Positions 43,135 to 53,110 of a DNA stretch of 64,000 nt are shown here, one piece after another (within the stretch, counting starts at the first letter, position 1; each line of letters begins with the position of its first letter). Origin of the DNA: Halobacteriovorax sp. HLS (GTDB taxonomy: Bacteria > Bdellovibrionota > Bacteriovoracia > Bacteriovoracales > Bacteriovoracaceae); contig NZ_QOCL01000001.1 of assembly GCF_004006665.1 (NCBI RefSeq), positions 62,001-126,000 on the forward strand, read 5' to 3'. A model generated the notes under the pieces. The model worked only from the letters and a program-made list of their open reading frames with translations, ran no database searches and was not told the DNA's origin. A program made the translations under genes and the position numbers.

Positions 43135-44232
43135 TTACTGAAATTCAACTTGCCACCAAGCTTGAATCTCCGAACAGGGAGAATTATTCTTATTACCGCA
43201 AATATTCCCACCAGGATGTCCTTTACCATTATGGCTTCCTGCAGGCATATTTATCATCTCATTATTAGTCGCACTCCCTCCGGCACCTGGAGAAGGACTA
43301 AGAAGAGAATTAAAATGCTGGTCATAATTAACTGCGTGACAACTTGAGCATCTACTGTCTAGTAGAGGTTTTACATTATTTTGATAGAAGTCATACCCTT
43401 CGATACTTGGAGCATATGTATAAATATTTTGAGGAGAATTAGCTAGAGCGATCTCTTGCTGATTTGAATCAATAGCATAACCGTATAACTGGTGAGCGCT
43501 TCCATCTCTATATTGAGAAGGAATGAAGAATATGAAACCATGATTTCCTGTTACACTACCTCCAGGAAGATTCGCACTCACACTTCCTAGAAATGTTCCA
43601 CTTCCCTTTGGTCCATCGAGATAGAATTCAACTTGAAGTGTACTATTGACATTAAAACTATCTCCTGCCCAACCATTAATCTTTCCCAAAGAGCTTATAA
43701 CATCAACACTTCCCATGACACCGCTTCCACTATTAGTTGGAGGATTATCTACAACAGGAGGATTAAGTTGAGAAAACTCTAGGGCATACCAATTCGCAAA
43801 TTTTTCACAAATACCTTCTGTAGAATTAGCACATTTGACTCCACCAGCGTGGGCCATACTTCCAATCATTTTCATATTAAGAGTTGAGCCTTGATAATTT
43901 GTAGAATTCATCATGAGCGCCTTAAGCTGATCATATTCTCCTACACTGATCGGTGCTCCGCCATTACTAGAGTGACAAAGAAGACAGTTTTGAGCTTGAA
44001 GTGCAGGACTAACAACTTCTTCATAGTAGCTATAGGCATTTGCATAATCAGTTGAAGGTGTACTAATTTCAGAAGGTGCAGTGCTTGAAGTATCATAAGA
44101 AGTTGAAGAACTGTTTTTATTCTTATAGTTAACTTTTGCATTTTGAGGAGTGATCATTAAGTCGCAGTGAGTATATGTTACTAACAAAACGACAACGAGA
44201 ACAATACTTGACCATTTAAATTTATTTTCCAT
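43135..44232 (-). CDS. Envelope protein with YTHC signal and two c-type heme motifs
   Basis: 365 residues. The hydrophobic signal ends in VTYTHC (C23), a variant lipobox with histidine before the cysteine. Two heme-attachment motifs are visible: C83-L-L-C86-H87 and C295-S-S-C298-H299. Between them, about 170-285, is a beta-rich stretch (LQVEFYLDGPKGSGTFLGSV) like an adhesion or carbohydrate-binding domain. Additional cysteines (CANSTEGICEKF; ICGNKNNSPC) may form disulfides. Divergent from the YceI/cytochrome pair. Probably an outer-membrane or periplasmic diheme protein; electron partner unknown. Confidence 0.8.
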   Translation of the reverse strand: MENKFKWSSIVLVVVLLVTYTHCDLMITPQNAKVNYKNKNSSSTSYDTSSTAPSEISTPSTDYANAYSYYEEVVSPALQAQNCLLCHSSNGGAPISVGEYDQLKALMMNSTNYQGSTLNMKMIGSMAHAGGVKCANSTEGICEKFANWYALEFSQLNPPVVDNPPTNSGSGVMGSVDVISSLGKINGWAGDSFNVNSTLQVEFYLDGPKGSGTFLGSVSANLPGGSVTGNHGFIFFIPSQYRDGSAHQLYGYAIDSNQQEIALANSPQNIYTYAPSIEGYDFYQNNVKPLLDSRCSSCHAVNYDQHFNSLLSPSPGAGGSATNNEMINMPAGSHNGKGHPGGNICGNKNNSPCSEIQAWWQVEFQ

Positions 44233-44353: not shown

Positions 44354-44845
44354 ATGAAACAAAGTTTTTTAGTCAAGATTGTCTTATTTTTAGTTTTTTC
44401 TTTTTCTTCAATGGCCGCGAGTAAAGGCGTCATAGTTGATGTTAACCTCTCTCCAGCAGGCAGTTTTCAAATCAAAGGTAAGCTCAAGGGTTCAGTTACT
44501 CAAAAAGGCGACAAGTTAATTTCCAATTCACTTTATGCTTCTGTTCAAAAGTTTAAAACAGGAATGGATCTTAGAGATGACCACACAAAAAAGAAACTTG
44601 AGTATAAGAAGTATCCAAAAGTTGAAATATTGAAGGCCGCAGGAAAAGACGGGAAAGGTCAGGCCATTATCCAAATTAGATCTATAAAGAAGAAGGTCTC
44701 CTTTACATATAAGAAATTAAACTCAAAGTATATTCAAGCAGTTTTTAATTTAAGTCTTAAAGACTTTAACTTTGAGGGTATAAACTATATGGGTGTAGGT
44801 GTAAAAGATATTGTTAAAGTAACTGCTACTGTACCGGTTAAGTAA
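44354..44845 (+). CDS. YceI-like periplasmic lipid-binding-fold protein
   Basis: 163 residues: signal peptide (ending SMA-AS) and a YceI-type lipocalin-like domain with the pattern VSVQKFKTGMDLRDDHTKKK (LYASVQKFKTGMDLRDDHTK in the protein), matching the conserved 'tgnelRDkHl' region of YceI. The family binds isoprenoids such as polyprenyl or quinone chains. The stop overlaps the ATG of the following cytochrome gene by one base, suggesting a quinone-linked redox pair. Confidence 0.82.
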   Translation: MKQSFLVKIVLFLVFSFSSMAASKGVIVDVNLSPAGSFQIKGKLKGSVTQKGDKLISNSLYASVQKFKTGMDLRDDHTKKKLEYKKYPKVEILKAAGKDGKGQAIIQIRSIKKKVSFTYKKLNSKYIQAVFNLSLKDFNFEGINYMGVGVKDIVKVTATVPVK

Positions 44846-45213
44846 TGATTAAGAAGACTTTACAATTACTCCTTTTAATAACTAGCACTTCTTGTGGACA
44901 GTCTTGGAATACAAACTCTAAAGACTTTCTTCTTAGTGGAAACGGAATTGACCCCTCAAATACAAATTTGGTTACGGCATTTGCAGTTATAAATGATGAA
45001 TGTATTTCTTGTCACACGGGCTATCACAACTCTTGGTCAACTCTAAATACTGACCAATTGTGGATTGCCAATGGGTCTATTGTTGCAGGTAGTGCACTAT
45101 CGAGCCCTCTAATTACAAGGCTAAAAAATAGAGGTGGAGATATGCCACTTTTAAGCCCTACTCTCACAGAGACTCAGTATAATGCTCTTATTAATTGGAT
45201 TGATGCTCTCTAG
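44845..45213 (+). CDS. Small mono-heme c-type cytochrome lipoprotein
   Basis: 122 residues: lipobox STSC (C17) and a single heme motif C53-I-S-C56-H57. A distal methionine in GGDMPLLSPTLTETQYNALINWI matches the axial Met and C-terminal helix of small c-type cytochromes of the kind seen beside planctomycete-type cytochromes. Translationally coupled to YceI. It likely transfers electrons in the periplasm while anchored to a membrane. It converges with the TPR/barrel gene with an 8-base gap. Confidence 0.85.
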   Translation: MIKKTLQLLLLITSTSCGQSWNTNSKDFLLSGNGIDPSNTNLVTAFAVINDECISCHTGYHNSWSTLNTDQLWIANGSIVAGSALSSPLITRLKNRGGDMPLLSPTLTETQYNALINWIDAL

Positions 45214-45221
45214 TTTAGAGA

Positions 45222-46280
45222 TTAGAAAATATAATTTACTCCAAAAGACATAGTCGTTGAAGAGAAACCAAATATTCGTCCAAGCTTTAGGTCTACTCCA
45301 AAACTCTTATACATCCATCCAGATTCAACCATTAGCCCAAGGCCCATCTGGGATTTTCCTTCAATTGTGAATCCATCTGGTTCAGTAAAGTCTCCTACTC
45401 TATAAACAAATGGTACCGACATCCCAAAAGAGACGCTTCCTGCTTTAGGTTTCCATCTAACACCAGGAAATAAAAAGAGCGCCCTTTCTGTAACATTGGA
45501 CTGAAAGTAATCTATCTCTTTTGTGTCTTCTCCAACAGTAGCACTGGCAAATGCAATACAGGCATCCATTTTATAATTAATATAAGCATTAGCATATTCA
45601 AAGCCACCGCCTAAACATGTACCTTCTGCGGACGACCCAATATCTTGTTTAGTTCCGGAAGGAGAAACTAGAGTCAGCTTATCTTGCCAAGTAATATAAC
45701 TAACCAGTAAGTTCTTACTCTGCTTATAAACCAAGCGTTGGTACTCATTCTTTCTCTCGCCTACAGCTTCAAATAATTCTTCAGCTTCATCTTCATGATG
45801 CTCAGCCGCGATACAAATTGCTGTATACATTTGAGCCGCTTTGTAAAAGAGTTCATTATTAGATTCGTCATATAGGGCCTTAGTATTATAGGCCTTTTTA
45901 TAATAGTAAAAAGATAGTTTTTCATCAATGCCTTCGATATCTTCAGCATTACCATCTGCTCTATAAGAGCTAATAATCTCTTGGTTCTTCTGTGGGTATT
46001 TCTTTTTAATTAATACTGTATATATAACTAATGCATCTTTGTGATAGCCTAGCTTTTCATTTGCAAGAGCTGCCAATTCAAGTGCGCCAGAAGGAGTAGA
46101 CATTCTTCTAAAATTATATCTCGAACGAAGTATATTCAAGCTAGTATCATATAGACCTTTCTTATAGGCTATCTTAGCATTTTTAAAGGCCTCTCTCTCC
46201 TCTACAGAGGCCTTCCTGGCCAGAGAGCTTCCTGCAAAACATAAAATTGAAAAAAGTAAAAGTAGATGTCTTATAGCCAT
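45222..46280 (-). CDS. TPR-like N-domain plus outer-membrane barrel protein
   Basis: 352 residues from the ATG at 46280. A GTG-like longer frame begins at 46307 but the 46280 start directly begins a signal peptide (MAIRHLLLLFSILCFAGSSLA). The N-terminal half is helical repeats (FKNAKIAYKKGLYDTSLNIL; HKDALVIYTVLI), TPR-like. The C-terminal 150 residues alternate as beta strands and end in phenylalanine (FGVNYIF), the outer-membrane barrel signal. It overlaps the heme-barrel gene by 10 bases. Last gene of the 45-53 kb operon. Confidence 0.78.
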   Translation of the reverse strand: MAIRHLLLLFSILCFAGSSLARKASVEEREAFKNAKIAYKKGLYDTSLNILRSRYNFRRMSTPSGALELAALANEKLGYHKDALVIYTVLIKKKYPQKNQEIISSYRADGNAEDIEGIDEKLSFYYYKKAYNTKALYDESNNELFYKAAQMYTAICIAAEHHEDEAEELFEAVGERKNEYQRLVYKQSKNLLVSYITWQDKLTLVSPSGTKQDIGSSAEGTCLGGGFEYANAYINYKMDACIAFASATVGEDTKEIDYFQSNVTERALFLFPGVRWKPKAGSVSFGMSVPFVYRVGDFTEPDGFTIEGKSQMGLGLMVESGWMYKSFGVDLKLGRIFGFSSTTMSFGVNYIF

Positions 46281-47416
46281 AAATGTAGTTGTCCAGCAAA
46301 AGACCATGTGTCTTTTGAATAGTTTGAATCGCTAAAAACTCGAGAATTATATAGATCAAATCTAAGTTCTAGACCTTGAAAAGGAAGATATTGAAAACCC
46401 GGACCAATTCGAAGAACCTTATCCGTTTTCTCTATATTGGCCCATAGGAACTCTACAGAAGTTAAATAGAATGTTCCTCTTCTTAACAGAACATGATTTT
46501 GGAAAAATGCATATCGACTTGTCAAATCTTGTGCAGTTACAACAGGCGTCTTAGTGACCTGTCCAACTTCGGCCATAATTGAAGAGCCTTTATCAAATCC
46601 CCACCTTCCATGTAGAGCATACATTGAGTTTTTCAAGTATTCACTCTCAGACATTAACAGAGAAGCTCCTACTCTCGATTTAGGACCTAAAGTATATTCA
46701 AATTGAGATGTAAATCCACTTTGTCTCACTTCTTGATCTTGAGTAGGGTTTCCAACAAAATATTGAGCTCCTACTTCAAACTCTGCTCTAGTATAATGAA
46801 CAACCACTCCTTGAGATTGATCATTCATAGTAAGGCCTGTAATCGCTCTTGAGAATGCTATATGATCAGGAACTCTAATGCCGAAAACCTTGTCCATTAA
46901 TCCTGCATAGAGACCCCAGTTTTCATTTACTCTCATTCCAATGTAGGCTTCACGAGATCTATAGGTTGGCTCATCATTTGATTTATCACCGCGTGGTTTT
47001 GGAGCATATCCAAAAGTACCAGAAGCGTAGTATTTATCATTTTTACCAAATTTAGCGACCACATTAACATTGGCCATCATATGAATAACTTCGGTTTCTG
47101 AGTTCTTTTCTCCCAAATTAGTTCTAAGTGCCAAACCTCTATAATTAACAGATGGCCTAAGCCAACTAGTAAATGCCTTTTGATACATAAAGCCTGATCG
47201 CTCACCAATTTCATCTTCACTAACATCACTATTCCAAATGGAACGATCTGCAATAACAGTGGCGGATACAGCTCTTCCATAATCAGTAAGAGGGCCATTT
47301 CCATGAGGATTATAGTGGCAAGTTAGACATGAGGTATAGCCGTATCCAATATAATTAGGGTAGGCCTTCAGGCTAAATGAGATAAGAAAGAAAAATAGTA
47401 TCTTAAGTGTTTTCAA
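46271..47416 (-). CDS. Outer-membrane barrel protein with N-terminal c-type heme motif (TTG start)
   Basis: 381 residues beginning with TTG; no in-frame ATG precedes it. After a signal peptide (about 1-18) comes YPNYIGYGYTSCLTCHYNPH with heme motif C30-L-T-C33-H34, then GNGPLTDYGRA, then about 320 residues of amphipathic beta strands ending in LHLWL. A heme bound at the periplasmic mouth of an outer-membrane barrel suggests electron or heme passage across the outer membrane. It follows the LspA-like gene by 86 bases and overlaps the TPR/barrel gene by 10. Confidence 0.8.
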   Translation of the reverse strand: MKTLKILFFFLISFSLKAYPNYIGYGYTSCLTCHYNPHGNGPLTDYGRAVSATVIADRSIWNSDVSEDEIGERSGFMYQKAFTSWLRPSVNYRGLALRTNLGEKNSETEVIHMMANVNVVAKFGKNDKYYASGTFGYAPKPRGDKSNDEPTYRSREAYIGMRVNENWGLYAGLMDKVFGIRVPDHIAFSRAITGLTMNDQSQGVVVHYTRAEFEVGAQYFVGNPTQDQEVRQSGFTSQFEYTLGPKSRVGASLLMSESEYLKNSMYALHGRWGFDKGSSIMAEVGQVTKTPVVTAQDLTSRYAFFQNHVLLRRGTFYLTSVEFLWANIEKTDKVLRIGPGFQYLPFQGLELRFDLYNSRVFSDSNYSKDTWSFAGQLHLWL

Positions 47417-47502
47417 TAATCATCAACTGTTAAAATAAATATCTTTAGAGATACTAAATATTGTAACAGTGAAAATTGGCAAGTGCATACGCAGCGCAGT
47501 AA

Positions 47503-48345
47503 TTATTTTGAATTTAAGTGAGTTTTTATCTTAGTAGCAACCTTTTCTAAGCGACGAAAGTTATCACCTTCTCTCAAAGAAAACTCTCCCCTCTCTACGC
47601 CTTCAATTAAGTCATCAATAAAGGACTCAAAAGCAAAAATTGGACCAACAGTTCTATGAGAAAGAACAATTCCACTAATAAAAACCACAAGAGCAAAACT
47701 GAGAGACAAGAAAATATAAGCCACAAGATATGTGATAAAGTATTTTTGATTCAAAAGACCAACTTCTACTAATAGAGTTCTAAAGTAAGTAAATGAAAAG
47801 ATACCGAAGATCAAAGAGCAGCTAACTACAATCGCCGTTAATTTTGAAGCAAACTTTACTTGCTCATCAGAATATAGAAGAAGTTTTCCTCTTTGATTTT
47901 CAGGATGCCAGATAATTTTCTCTTTGCTAATTATTTTATAAAGAATTAGTCCCGCACCGACCCATTGGAAAACGTCTGCAATATTAAATGTAATCTCAAT
48001 TCCAGGAATAATATTAAATGGAATGAAGTCAATACTTTTACCGATAAGAGTTCTATCTATCACATTACCAAAGATTCCACCTATAAATAATGATATCCCA
48101 TATTTAAGAATAGCAAGTCGAGGTGAAAGCATATAAATCAAAACGGTATAAATGAAGAAAATAAAACCTGAGATACTTGTTAAAGCGATAATTCTAAGGG
48201 CACTAGGTATATCAGAATAGAGGCCAAAGATGACCCCTTCATTATAGTGTAACGTTGGCAAACCTCTTCCTAGATATTTAGAGATTTGATCAATAATTAT
48301 GACAAGGGTAAAGATCCCAAGACATTTAAAAAATGTTTTTCCCAT
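47503..48345 (-). CDS. LspA-type signal peptidase II fused to a membrane HAMP-like domain
   Basis: 280 residues; ordinary LspA is about 160. Residues 1-142 are LspA: four TM helices, LHYNEGVIFGL, and the catalytic aspartates D97 (GNVIDR) and D124 (FNIAD). Two further TM helices follow (about 166-188 and 204-228) and then 229-278, RTVGPIFAFESFIDDLIEGV and on to LREGDNFRRLEKVATKI, which reads as a HAMP-like linker. There is no kinase or receptor output. Cuts signal peptides before lipid-modified cysteines. It begins one base after an exported YNHC protein gene, so it is probably dedicated to this operon's products. Confidence 0.87.
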   Translation of the reverse strand: MGKTFFKCLGIFTLVIIIDQISKYLGRGLPTLHYNEGVIFGLYSDIPSALRIIALTSISGFIFFIYTVLIYMLSPRLAILKYGISLFIGGIFGNVIDRTLIGKSIDFIPFNIIPGIEITFNIADVFQWVGAGLILYKIISKEKIIWHPENQRGKLLLYSDEQVKFASKLTAIVVSCSLIFGIFSFTYFRTLLVEVGLLNQKYFITYLVAYIFLSLSFALVVFISGIVLSHRTVGPIFAFESFIDDLIEGVERGEFSLREGDNFRRLEKVATKIKTHLNSK

Positions 48346-48346
48346 A

Positions 48347-49669
48347 CTATTGTAATTCTAACACTTCAAACGAGAATGAGAAACGATCGGCAGTATTTCC
48401 ATTCTCTTTAATTGCTAAAAGAGAAGATGATGATACTGAAGAGTCGGCGGGACCAACAACTTTATCTACAAAATTATATGTTGCGTGCTGAGGATTATAA
48501 TTTCCATTAATGAGAAGCTTCATTCCCTTCACTCTAATATTTCGATTAGAAATAATCTTAGGGTTAAAGAACTGATAAGTATATTCGTCAAATTCTCTAC
48601 ATTCGACTTCAAGTCTAACTGACCCAGAGTTTAAACCAACCATTGCAGAAATATCATAACTAAAAGTAACACTTGTACCTAGGTCGAAAGTTGTTGGAGA
48701 TTGATTGAAGTCATCAGTTAGTATGACGGTACTTATCTTTGTACCATCTTCTCTTTGTCTAATTTCTAATCTATTAGAATCCCCTTGAGGCATAAAGAAA
48801 TTCATAGGGTTTCTATTTGTAGTAGTCGTAACTTCTCTCCACTCAAAACCATTCGTGGCAGGAATATGCCATTGCGCATAGTTACCATTATTTAATCTAA
48901 TAAAGAAAGAATCATCACTATTTGCTTTCGCATCAACATAGGCCCACATTTTGTATGTGGCAGTTTTCATGCTTGAGAAATTAATAAAGGCCATCCCAGC
49001 AGTTGGGTCGTTTACATTCTTATTAACACCAGTTCCACCAACATAGAGATATTCAATATCTCCACTTTGCCCTCTCGTCATTGGGGCCTGTAACATCGCG
49101 GCTCCAGGCTGAAGCTTTATAAGACCAGTATTTCCTCCAGCATTTAAACTTTGATCTAGAGTTAAAGACTCATTTGTCGTCATACTAGAATTAGAAGATG
49201 CTTCATCATCAATAGGAGTGACATTAGCTGAATCTCTCATAGCGATCCACTGTTCTATCTCAGAAAGAATTTCATTGCTATTATCTGCACAATTAGACCA
49301 ACAATTATGATTTTCGTCTTTTAATTTAAGAACCATTCTTGAATTTTCAGGATTTGTAAAATTGACTTTATAACTATTGATAATAGCATCATATGCAGTA
49401 TTAACATCACTTGAAGCATGTAGAGGTTGTTGCAAGGAACCATGACAACTAGCACATCTATTCTTTGTAATCTGCCAAACTGTATTGGAGAAGAATTCAA
49501 CATCATCACCAGTTGCTGTAGATACTATTCCACTATTACTGACACTAATATCATCAGGGTGTGAAAAAGTTAAATCACTTTTTTTCTTAGAAGCTGCTGG
49601 CATTCCACAATGATTATACGTCACCAACAAAAGTCCTAATACAACAACACTTGAAATCTTTTTCCACAT
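48347..49669 (-). CDS. Envelope protein with YNHC signal, c-type heme motif and beta-sandwich
   Basis: 440 residues. The signal ends VTYNHC (C21). A heme motif C72-A-S-C75-H76 lies in a cytochrome-like region that ends with HNCWSNCADNSNEILSEIEQ, a cysteine pair typical of large envelope cytochromes of this type. The C-terminal 260 residues are beta-rich (TATYKMWAYVDAKANSDDSF; NGNYAQWHIP; GFEWREVT), like a carbohydrate-binding or concanavalin-like sandwich. Encoded between the DUF1501-type gene (11-base gap) and the LspA-like gene (one-base gap). Confidence 0.8.
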   Translation of the reverse strand: MWKKISSVVVLGLLLVTYNHCGMPAASKKKSDLTFSHPDDISVSNSGIVSTATGDDVEFFSNTVWQITKNRCASCHGSLQQPLHASSDVNTAYDAIINSYKVNFTNPENSRMVLKLKDENHNCWSNCADNSNEILSEIEQWIAMRDSANVTPIDDEASSNSSMTTNESLTLDQSLNAGGNTGLIKLQPGAAMLQAPMTRGQSGDIEYLYVGGTGVNKNVNDPTAGMAFINFSSMKTATYKMWAYVDAKANSDDSFFIRLNNGNYAQWHIPATNGFEWREVTTTTNRNPMNFFMPQGDSNRLEIRQREDGTKISTVILTDDFNQSPTTFDLGTSVTFSYDISAMVGLNSGSVRLEVECREFDEYTYQFFNPKIISNRNIRVKGMKLLINGNYNPQHATYNFVDKVVGPADSSVSSSSLLAIKENGNTADRFSFSFEVLELQ

Positions 49670-49680
49670 ACTTTTAAACC

Positions 49681-51135
49681 TTAAAGTTTATTAAAAATTA
49701 AATATTTATCCAAATCCTGTCCAAATGGATTATCTCCTACAATCGCGTCTAATCTTCCTTCTTCTCCACTAAGAGCGAGGTAATTTGCAACGATGGCCTT
49801 GGATAAATTCACAGAACTATTACTTGTGGCCATTGCACTATTTTCCACTGATCCACTTTCTTTAAACCAACCTACTTGCCTCTTTCCAGTTCTTAGAGTT
49901 GCTCTACCCGCATTTCTATAAACCATCATAAAAGCACTTGATCTTTGACCGCTATCTCCAGACCAGACGTACTTACCTCTCCCATTTGCCGAGTCATCTA
50001 TTTCAGCTCTTGCAGTAACTCCACCATCTGTATAAACAAGAATCATAAGATCTTTTTGTTTTCTGGCCGCTAGTTCTAAGACTTTTCCTATTAATACACC
50101 GGCCGACTCATCTCTTTGTTCACCAGTTGCTCTTGTTCTATTATGATAATCATAGCCACCTTTCTCAATTGTCGCAGCTCCGATATAACCTTCTAGAACA
50201 AGCTTTGCTAATGTCGCCGTCTTTCTATCGTCACCATTATTTAGATTTCCAAAGACTGCCTGTACATCAGCATCACTTGATGCATTAATTGCTTCTTCTG
50301 AGAACTTATTTAAAACATCTTGTGACTGAATATAACCACAAGAAACCAAGGCCTTAATTTGTTCAGGAAGAGACTTAGAAGAGAAGTTATTAATTCTCTG
50401 TTCACTCATTCTTTGAGTGGCCTTTAAAATCCTCTGAGCTTGATTTCTAGAAAAGACAGTATTAAGTCTACCGATATTAACTAATGCTAATGCATCTTCT
50501 GGTCTATTTATTGTTACAGGTTGCGCAGCTGGGTTTATAGACATTGCAGGAGATCTAGATCTCCCTCCAGACTCACTATTTCTTGTACCCGCTAAATTTG
50601 TTAAAGACCCTTGAGCTCCAGCAGCATTGAGCCAGTACATTGGATTGAGTGGATTATTTTGAGTATCATCACTTGATGAACTGGCAAATACACCTCCATC
50701 AACCTTTGCTCTAGTCGCAGCAGAGGTATTGTCTTGAATTCCTCGCAAGATCCCACTATCTCCATGAAACGCCAACCCTAAGTCAGTATTTAATTGTCCT
50801 TGATTTTTTGGATGCATATCAGGCGGCAGCCCTAGAGTTGTATAAGATTGCAAGAAGTCCATTTGTCCTCCTGCTCCTCCTACCATAACATTAGAACCTG
50901 GAAGATTAGCTCCTCCGGCCAAATCAAAAATAAGTATTGGAGTTTTTCCTACAATGGCCTGAGCGACTTCACAGTCAACAGCAGCATATGCTTGATTTGA
51001 GAGAACTCCTAATAGAGATGGTACTGCCGTAAGGGCGCCCATAGAAATAAGTCCATGAGAGAGAAAATCTCTTCTTGTCTTTAGAGTATGACCTTCAGGA
51101 ATAATTATCTTTTCTTCTTTTTTCTTAGTCATCAT
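49681..51135 (-). CDS. Tat-exported DUF1501-type protein
   Basis: 484 residues. A twin-arginine signal TRRDFLSHG (R21, R22) leads to a cleavage site near AYA-AVDC, so it is exported folded, perhaps with a cofactor. The body (ILIFDLAGGANLPGSNVMVG; GGYDYHNRTRATGEQRDE; LMILVYTDGG) resembles DUF1501/sulfatase-like proteins that accompany envelope cytochromes with DUF1549/DUF1588-type domains in planctomycetes, myxobacteria and others. Function undefined. Ribosome-binding site AGGAG favours either of two adjacent ATGs. Six bases separate it from the gene upstream. Confidence 0.82.
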   Translation of the reverse strand: MMTKKKEEKIIIPEGHTLKTRRDFLSHGLISMGALTAVPSLLGVLSNQAYAAVDCEVAQAIVGKTPILIFDLAGGANLPGSNVMVGGAGGQMDFLQSYTTLGLPPDMHPKNQGQLNTDLGLAFHGDSGILRGIQDNTSAATRAKVDGGVFASSSSDDTQNNPLNPMYWLNAAGAQGSLTNLAGTRNSESGGRSRSPAMSINPAAQPVTINRPEDALALVNIGRLNTVFSRNQAQRILKATQRMSEQRINNFSSKSLPEQIKALVSCGYIQSQDVLNKFSEEAINASSDADVQAVFGNLNNGDDRKTATLAKLVLEGYIGAATIEKGGYDYHNRTRATGEQRDESAGVLIGKVLELAARKQKDLMILVYTDGGVTARAEIDDSANGRGKYVWSGDSGQRSSAFMMVYRNAGRATLRTGKRQVGWFKESGSVENSAMATSNSSVNLSKAIVANYLALSGEEGRLDAIVGDNPFGQDLDKYLIFNKL

Positions 51136-51141
51136 AATCTC

Positions 51142-51858
51142 CTAAAGCATAATTGCATGAATAGAACCTAGGGTTGATATACAAACGCCTTTGGCTATTT
51201 CTCTGGTCACTGCTGAAGAACCTTGATTCTCCCCTACCAGCAAATCATTAATTAAAGAATTTAATTCACTTTGAGCTGCAATTTTTGTTGAAAACTCCTG
51301 ATCACTTAGCATCCAAAAGTGATCAATTGCACTATCTATTAGATAAGCTCTTCCTTCATTATCTAATTCAGAACTTGGCGCTCGACCAAAGTCTAAATCT
51401 GGCCAAATATTCGCCCTTAAACTTGCTGACTCAACCAGCTCATTACAAAATTCTGCCGCTAGCTTTACAATGGCAACTTGATTAGCAGACTGAAAGGACT
51501 TTATGCTATTTGTTGTTGGTAATTGGTCTTTTACTGCTGCATACGTATTTCTAATCTCTCTATCTTCGATGCTAACTCCAGTGAGTTGGGCCATAGTCAT
51601 CAAAATCTGTTCATAATTTTTAACTCCAACTTCTACAGTCTGTGTAACCACTGGATTTGGATTAGGAATATTTTGATCTTCAATCGTCTCAGGAATACTC
51701 GAGTCTGACTGAGTATTATTAACCACTGTTTCATTTGTGCTCGTCTTAGTGCTCTTATTCTTTCCGGTCTTTTGACTGACAACACAGTGATTATAACTTA
51801 GTAGCAATAGAACTACAGTCGTTACTGAACCTAGTATTTTCATAGATCTTTTCTTCAT
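51142..51858 (-). CDS. YNHC-signal envelope protein of unknown function
   Basis: 238 residues. The signal ends LSYNHC (C25), matching two other proteins in this block. A low-complexity Ser/Thr/Asn linker (about 30-70) precedes a helical domain with no motif I recognise (VKNYEQILMTMAQLTGVSIE; SAVTREIAKGVCISTLGS). No heme motif. The ribosome-binding site AGGAGG sits just inside the end of the previous gene (1-base overlap). It may be an assembly or tethering partner for the heme proteins. Confidence 0.8.
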   Translation of the reverse strand: MKKRSMKILGSVTTVVLLLLSYNHCVVSQKTGKNKSTKTSTNETVVNNTQSDSSIPETIEDQNIPNPNPVVTQTVEVGVKNYEQILMTMAQLTGVSIEDREIRNTYAAVKDQLPTTNSIKSFQSANQVAIVKLAAEFCNELVESASLRANIWPDLDFGRAPSSELDNEGRAYLIDSAIDHFWMLSDQEFSTKIAAQSELNSLINDLLVGENQGSSAVTREIAKGVCISTLGSIHAIML

Positions 51859-52991
51859 TAATTACCTCCTTTAAAACAAATAGAGGCCATCTTAGAGAAT
51901 AGATCTTTCATTCTAAATCCCATAGTCGACTCGAACATCGTTGCATAATTATCAATTTGAGTTTCACCTAAAGTTTCTTTTGCATCATTTAGACAAATAA
52001 GTTTGTAGCTTTTTTGCACCATACATCTAGAAAATGCTTTTGAACTGGATAACATTCTCCCCAGAGATTTGGCACCTGCTCCATTTTGACTTCCTCGCCA
52101 TCCAAGAGATGCATTTTGTCCATTTGCCCAAAGGTTTAACCAAGAGTCATTCGTTGTAACATAACCTGCAGGAAAGAGATTATTGCGATTAATTTTTTCT
52201 ACTACAGTTCCTGGAGTATGCTTAACTTCACCATCAACATAATCAAAGTAAGCAAATGCTCCACCGAGAGCATCTTGGCCAGCGTGACAACCAACACATT
52301 TATTCTTGAAAGTTCTTGAATCATTACCTGGTTTTCTATCAACGTCTTGCCTAACCCTAAAGTCAGGAAGATTCACATCATGTAAATCCTCAAAGTCCTT
52401 ACAAAGAAAATTCATAAAAGTATATCTAGTCATGGCACGATTTGTTCCATCAGAAAAAAAAGCTTCACCAGCTGCTCTAGTTGTAATAATACCTGCAGTA
52501 TCACTAATCCCATTCATCTGGGACTGAGTTGCTAGAGAGAGCGCTTCTTTTAAATCAATATTCTTCTCTTCCGCTTCTTTATAGTGATCATTAGAATCAG
52601 AAGAGTAAGGAGCAATATCTCCGCTATCTACAGTATATAGAATGTCATCATGAAGAACGCTTGAAAATGGTCTATCATCTCGAATGACACCAATAATTGT
52701 TGCAACGTAATCATTAAAAGGAATTCTATTGGTTTCATCTTCATTGGTCCAAGGCTTGGCCCAATTTTTAAGAACAACATTATAAAAATTCTTATTATTC
52801 ATCGCTTCTTTAGCTGCTTGTTCAACTTGGTTAGAAGCAACAAGAATAGACATTCTTTGTAATACATCTTTAGAAGGAGGAACACCTGTTATACGATTAT
52901 GAAGCTGATGAGCTGTTTTCCAAGAGTCACCAAAGCTACTCATGCTTACTAAGAGCATTAAGCCTATTTTTAATTTCGTTTTAGAATTCAT
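51858..52991 (-). CDS. Envelope cytochrome of DUF1549/DUF1588-like type
   Basis: 377 residues from the ATG at 52991, chosen because AGGAAGGGA precedes it; the frame is open to 53027. Signal peptide about 1-21. HNRITGVPPSKDVLQRM and IGVIRDDRPFSSVLHDDIL resemble DUF1549, and GTNRAMTRYTFMNFLC with PDFRVRQDVDRKPG resembles DUF1588-type cytochrome regions. The heme motif is C232-V-G-C235-H236 followed by AGQDALGGAFAYFD. First gene of an operon through 45222. Substrate and redox partner unknown. Confidence 0.82.
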   Translation of the reverse strand: MNSKTKLKIGLMLLVSMSSFGDSWKTAHQLHNRITGVPPSKDVLQRMSILVASNQVEQAAKEAMNNKNFYNVVLKNWAKPWTNEDETNRIPFNDYVATIIGVIRDDRPFSSVLHDDILYTVDSGDIAPYSSDSNDHYKEAEEKNIDLKEALSLATQSQMNGISDTAGIITTRAAGEAFFSDGTNRAMTRYTFMNFLCKDFEDLHDVNLPDFRVRQDVDRKPGNDSRTFKNKCVGCHAGQDALGGAFAYFDYVDGEVKHTPGTVVEKINRNNLFPAGYVTTNDSWLNLWANGQNASLGWRGSQNGAGAKSLGRMLSSSKAFSRCMVQKSYKLICLNDAKETLGETQIDNYATMFESTMGFRMKDLFSKMASICFKGGN

Positions 52992-53110
52992 TCCCTTCCT
53001 CATCATATAGATATAGTTAGTACACAACTTATATTATGATGAAAAATTATTGAGTAAAAGCTTTGGAACATTATACCGATTAGATCAGCTTCTAAGTTTT
53101 TGAAAACTCG

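Follow-up and report, generated by a model that had tools for sequence, protein, structure and literature searches.

We describe a seven-gene operon of Bdellovibrionota in which one gene, E, likely encodes a dedicated signal peptidase II that has a lipobox code of its own and works beside the housekeeping LspA. Two lipoproteins of the operon carry a non-canonical lipobox, and across the phylum this box covaries with the presence of E. The catalytic residues of E are conserved and positions of its pocket are changed. We infer that E cleaves these clients, that it does so exclusively and that its HAMP-like part gates the reaction. The operon was found in a stretch of 64,000 nucleotides (the window) from a genome (G000) of 3.84 Mb which is essentially complete.

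Organization and conservation of the operon

According to the ORF list of the window, genes A to G are seven same-strand ORFs located between positions 53027 and 45222 on the minus strand (Table 1). Genes A and B overlap by 1 base, the gaps B-C, C-D, D-E and E-F comprise 6, 11, 1 and 86 bases, and F and G overlap by 10 bases if the internal ATG at 46280 is taken as the start of G. Judging from comparison with homologues, the start of gene A is probably an internal ATG near 52991. The tight spacing described in the sequence-only reading (-10 to +11 bases plus one gap of 86) is thereby confirmed, and the motifs noted there are present: YNHC in B and D, CxxCH in A, D and F, and a Tat-type RR motif in C.

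Table 1. Coordinates of the operon and related features (positions in the window, unless a contig or locus precedes the colon)
Feature	Coordinates	Strand
Gene A: exported monoheme (CVGCH) protein, remote DUF1549/DUF1585/DUF1588 relative; start as probably assigned	51858..52991	-
Gene B: lipoprotein, odd lipobox YNHC	51142..51858	-
Odd lipobox YNHC of gene B	51784..51795	-
Gene C: Tat-type (RRDFL) exported protein, predicted alkaline-phosphatase-superfamily fold (DUF1501-like)	49681..51135	-
Gene D: monoheme (CASCH) lipoprotein, odd lipobox YNHC	48347..49669	-
Odd lipobox YNHC of gene D	49607..49618	-
Gene E: LspA (signal peptidase II) paralogue with two further helices and HAMP-like tail; Asp106/Asp124; Gln127-Trp128	47503..48345	-
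Gene F: predicted outer-membrane barrel, N-terminal single heme motif SCLTCHYNP	46271..47416	-
Gene G: predicted repeat/barrel exported protein, after F	45222..46280	-
Third odd-box lipoprotein: YTHC at 44164-44175, two CxxCH	43135..44232	-
Short monoheme lipoprotein, canonical lipobox, recurrent operon neighbour (internal control)	44845..45213	+
Partner gene of the short cytochrome lipoprotein, recurrent, 163 aa	44354..44845	+
Lgt genes of G000	C4:93142; C1:236474	
E-F fused frames	L043:9632-11593; L275:9364-11340; L276:9463-11418	

The domain families proposed earlier for A and C are less firm than stated. A had been called DUF1549/DUF1588-like, and it appears to be so only weakly and remotely: some of its 16 homologues gave weak Pfam E-values for DUF1549/1585/1588 (best 4e-4), with the protein of the window remaining below the cut-off. 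For C, described as a DUF1501-type protein, none of 13 members matched DUF1501 in Pfam at E-values up to 0.1, and the assignment survives at the level of the fold. The model of C aligned with NPP, sulfatase and phosphatase chains with Z up to 12.5 (VIA-align), which points to an alkaline-phosphatase-superfamily fold; DUF1501 is a member of this superfamily. Several homologues of D show cytochrome c-like matches, and in F an invariant CxTCHYN heme motif precedes the predicted barrel. Taken by their predicted features, A, C, D and F would be compatible with a redox or substrate-processing assembly of the envelope, such as the trans-envelope assembly of the sequence-only reading that would pass electrons or a substrate.

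Many Bacteriovoracia-type genomes share the order A-B-C-D-E, often followed by F and G, and the gene order of the operon is shared by several genera of Bdellovibrionota. Since the order recurs in many other genomes, the neighbourhood is not peculiar to this one and chance can be excluded as the source of the seven-gene arrangement. The two-gene unit of the 163-aa protein and the short cytochrome lipoprotein also recurs adjoining the operon; the former appears YceI-like by eye only and showed no Pfam match. Approximately 20 of 59 relatives possess a homologue of E in which LspA and tail are both complete, and at a threshold of E ≤ 1e-11 homologues were detected in 198 of 369 genomes of the phylum. 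We further scanned contigs with the smaller alignment of E as profile, the larger alignment A1 being too diverse: the full-length matches are nearly all titled Bdellovibrionota, the remainder bearing generic titles only. In Bdellovibrionia E is unlinked.

The odd lipobox and its covariation with gene E

The signal peptides of B, D and the third lipoprotein, which the sequence-only reading had left out, end in YNHC, YNHC and YTHC, respectively. B and D thus miss the canonical lipobox [LVI][ASTVI][GAS]C and carry [YF][NT]HC instead (referred to as odd box), and they have the other features of a lipoprotein, i.e. a charged n-region, a hydrophobic h-region and the Cys. Cys21 of D is invariant in 16 homologues. 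When all 10 matches to [YF][NT][HQ]C in the G000 genome were read in context, the only signal peptides among them were the three near E. Three genomes of the same genus without E (G001, G003, G004) yielded no odd-box signal peptide in 31 matches read. In three Bdellovibrio-like genomes 14 of 31 matches were signal peptides ending in [YF]QNC, located at scattered loci, and no such signal peptide was among the 7 matches read in G060, G013, G002, G003 and G004, in which E was not detected at 1e-11. Raw counts of [YF]xNC in genomes with and without E were left unused and only matches read in context were counted, since the AT-rich background swamps the former. One of the 14 Bdellovibrio-like lipoproteins (L362, box SFQNC) contains a MIDAS-like DNSQT (DxSxT) motif and a weak VWA match. 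It is possibly related to the Bdellovibrio adhesin Bd0875, a MIDAS lipobox protein with the Cys at residue 22 (PMC11003981).

Odd boxes are also found outside the operon. The third odd-box lipoprotein has an FTHC homologue in G010 which is unlinked to E, and next to E paralogues in other contexts there are unrelated lipoproteins whose boxes read TYQNC (L038), GYQNC (L047, L051) and VLQNC (L046). A location of LspA-HAMP genes mostly away from YNHC genes, which according to the sequence-only reading would speak against a system, is seen in Bdellovibrionia only, and there [YF][NQTS]NC boxes are still present in the same genomes. Some Bdellovibrionia boxes have a small -1 residue (YNSC, FNAC, GNAC).

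The phylum was searched with a profile of C, 60 further stretches were added and 93 loci were parsed. In genomes with E the box of the orthologous D was odd in 55 of 62 cases and canonical in 7. Where E was absent, or represented by a weak, distant E-like match only, the D box was canonical in 18 of 20 cases and odd in 2 (nominal Fisher 1e-10, a value inflated by relatedness). The two odd-box exceptions without a detected E (G148, G257) come from assemblies that are 82% and 84% complete, and in one of the two D runs off the contig. At 72 loci the boxes of B and D could be compared: 51 were odd in both, 19 canonical in both and 2 discordant. In genomes without E (G051, G057, G044, G016, G035, G058) the boxes of the A-B-C-D operons are canonical as far as B or D can be called, for instance LTGC, LMSC and FVSC. 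Four E-bearing genomes (G071, G081, G083, G085) contain an odd-box operon together with a paralogous canonical-box operon, the latter belonging to a subfamily with a D of 1170-1380 aa. Three others (G027, G129 and G268, locus L312) possess E and have canonical A-D loci only, among the loci read. In E-bearing Bacteriovoracia-type loci the neighbouring short cytochrome lipoprotein has a canonical box; regional or compositional effects therefore do not account for the odd box. About 4 clades on the tree of C carry the odd box, and independent pairs differing in both traits number 2 to 0, too few for significance. The covariation is strong in number and thin in independence. The earlier claim that the operon has its own signal peptidase is strongly supported, and beyond that claim the peptidase and the odd lipobox covary throughout the phylum.

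We considered it unlikely that canonical LspA also processes the odd boxes and that E is a hitchhiking gene or a general-purpose second LspA. Operon linkage alone would give co-inheritance in Bacteriovoracia; in Bdellovibrionia, however, E is unlinked and the boxes are odd nonetheless. Leptospira does process boxes whose -1 residue is bulky, and apparently a single modified Lsp and Lgt suffice for this (PMC4758666). Here, canonical LspA is present everywhere checked and leaves the switch of the box unexplained: the same orthologues are canonical where E is absent, and unrelated lipoproteins beside other copies of E share the odd box. A second Lgt was rejected as the specificity factor, because nearly all Bdellovibrionota checked have two Lgt genes per genome independent of E.

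Gene E as a signal peptidase II paralogue

Gene E matches Peptidase_A8 (PF01252) in Pfam with 58.3 bits against a cut-off of 25 (E 1.3e-15), and this match is found in all 23 members of the E alignment A1. Of the 14 LspA residues that PMC6952399 lists as highly conserved, the E protein of the window keeps 13 and is therefore probably active. In the AF2 model (pLDDT 90) its first 145 residues adopt the LspA fold, with 5dir, 6ryo and 6ryp as top Foldseek matches. Canonical LspA was found alongside E in 30 of 30 genomes checked; G000 contains exactly two LspA-family genes.

For comparison of the pocket 46 E proteins were aligned with 16 canonical LspA proteins. All catalytic positions are kept in E. 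At position 127 the canonical Ile is replaced by Gln in 43 of the 46 E proteins, at position 128 Thr/Cys/Ser is replaced by Trp in 38, and at position 39 the second Ala of NxGAA is changed to Met/Ile. The E protein of L051 is without the Gln-Trp signature, though its neighbouring lipoprotein carries YQNC. In the structure of S. aureus LspA the equivalent loop covers the pocket for the substrate, with the signal peptide presumed to sit between H2, H3 and H4 (PMC6952399). The altered positions would be sensible sites for a change in specificity.

In the modelled tail TM5 is followed by TM6, which extends into a long helix (200-247); a connecting loop then leads to a short helix (265-279). The alignment shows conserved SHR.AGP and R..D motifs. 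This tail appears to resemble HAMP in layout only (TM helix into AS1, connector, AS2). Pfam HAMP matched none of the 23 E members at E-values up to 0.01, and HAMP structures were not among the Foldseek matches returned for the model, an outcome that is neutral with regard to HAMP. Of the LspA-HAMP fusion proposed earlier, the LspA part stands with its Peptidase_A8 match, and the HAMP part is reduced to a predicted topology and a motif. Stand-alone relatives of the TM5-TM6-HAMP-like tail with a length of 170-190 aa are common in the phylum (L237:1495-2064, L238:1782-2291), and E may represent a fusion of LspA with one of this kind.

Further variants of E were noticed. In genus g4 (G007, G142, G144) E and F form a single open frame in which the HAMP-like tail continues into the signal peptide of F; the barrel may therefore be released by cleavage from an inner-membrane E-F fusion. 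One E homologue (L046:8924-10378) has a C-terminal AhpC/TSA-redoxin domain and adjoins a DUF4331 lipoprotein, the one with the VLQNC box. Two others are distant (L055:9631-10491, L056:5808-6719), and L055 has Thr at the conserved Asp97 position of other LspA proteins, so that an inactive form is possible.

The two added helices and the HAMP-like tail without an output domain would also suit a protein that binds odd-box signal peptides mainly for retention or signalling. The HAMP-like module would then transmit lipoprotein status, cleavage would be secondary or absent, and the clients would be uncleaved lipid-plus-helix anchors. A few distant homologues such as L055 have lost a conserved active-site residue; in the 46 full-length E proteins, however, Asp106 and Asp124 as well as nearly all active-site residues are invariant, and we regard such a role as improbable. 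That the odd box is a lineage habit, i.e. a drift of signal peptides coincident with E, would agree with the small number of independent switches seen in the tree of C but seems very remote, given that paralogous operons in the same genome and the conserved neighbouring lipoprotein stay canonical and that same-genus genomes without E are, in the matches read, also without the odd box.

Proposed maturation route and relation to known systems

We favour E as a dedicated signal peptidase II. The odd-box prolipoproteins would be exported by Sec, and Lgt (two copies, with or without E) would attach diacylglycerol to the lipobox Cys. Canonical LspA would process the odd box poorly because of its bulky polar residues at -1, -2 and -3. 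E would cleave the [YF][NTQ][HNQ]C box by means of a remodelled loop and helix near Asp106/Asp124 (Met/Ile39, Gln127, Trp128), and the TM5-TM6-HAMP-like module would probably dimerise E or let a signal gate cleavage. In the window the clients would be B and D, whose later work in the envelope would be shared with A, C, F and G. On a wider scale, we see about equal weight for and against a second, orthogonal channel of lipoprotein maturation in much of Bdellovibrionota, with a HAMP-tailed LspA paralogue reading this box as a private signal and possibly gated through its HAMP-like part. As its clients would include heme lipoproteins and, in Bdellovibrio-like genomes, the VWA/MIDAS-like surface protein L362, the functions served by this channel in the envelope may be linked to predation.

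Textbook lipoprotein processing follows a single Lgt-LspA route with a single lipobox. To our knowledge no pair of a dedicated LspA and a matching non-canonical box has been known before, and our literature search retrieved no description of a dedicated LspA, of LspA plus HAMP, or of DUF1501 plus DUF1588/1549. If the proposal is true, lipoproteins overlooked by predictors would come to light and LspA specificity would become directly testable with natural enzyme-substrate pairs. It could also open a route to regulated surface display in predatory bacteria.

E agrees with LspA (MEROPS A8, PF01252; 5dir, 6ryo) in its Asp dyad, in 13 of 14 highly conserved residues and in the fold that its first 145 residues adopt. 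It differs in the added TM5-TM6 and HAMP-like tail and in having Gln127/Trp128 and Met/Ile39 where LspA has Ile, Thr/Cys/Ser and Ala; in addition, it occurs together with a canonical LspA, and its presence covaries with that of a non-canonical lipobox. The relaxed lipobox of Leptospira accepts bulky -1 residues (Asn, Gln and others), for which altered Lsp/Lgt are thought to be needed (PMC4758666). There the housekeeping enzymes are altered and the whole lipoproteome is affected, whereas here a second enzyme goes together with one defined box that part of the lipoproteins carry. Sortases, exosortase/PEP-CTERM and SipW are dedicated processing systems with private sorting signals. They resemble the present case in that a paralogous processing enzyme is paired with a recognition motif of its own and with clients from neighbouring genes; here, in contrast, the enzyme belongs to the signal peptidase II family and an N-terminal lipobox serves as the signal. 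DUF1549/1588 (PSCyt) and DUF1501 genes of the planctomycete type occur as pairs. A is remotely related to the former and C has the expected alkaline-phosphatase fold in its model; unlike in these pairs, A stays below the Pfam cut-offs, C is without a Pfam match, and B, D, E, F and G are added.
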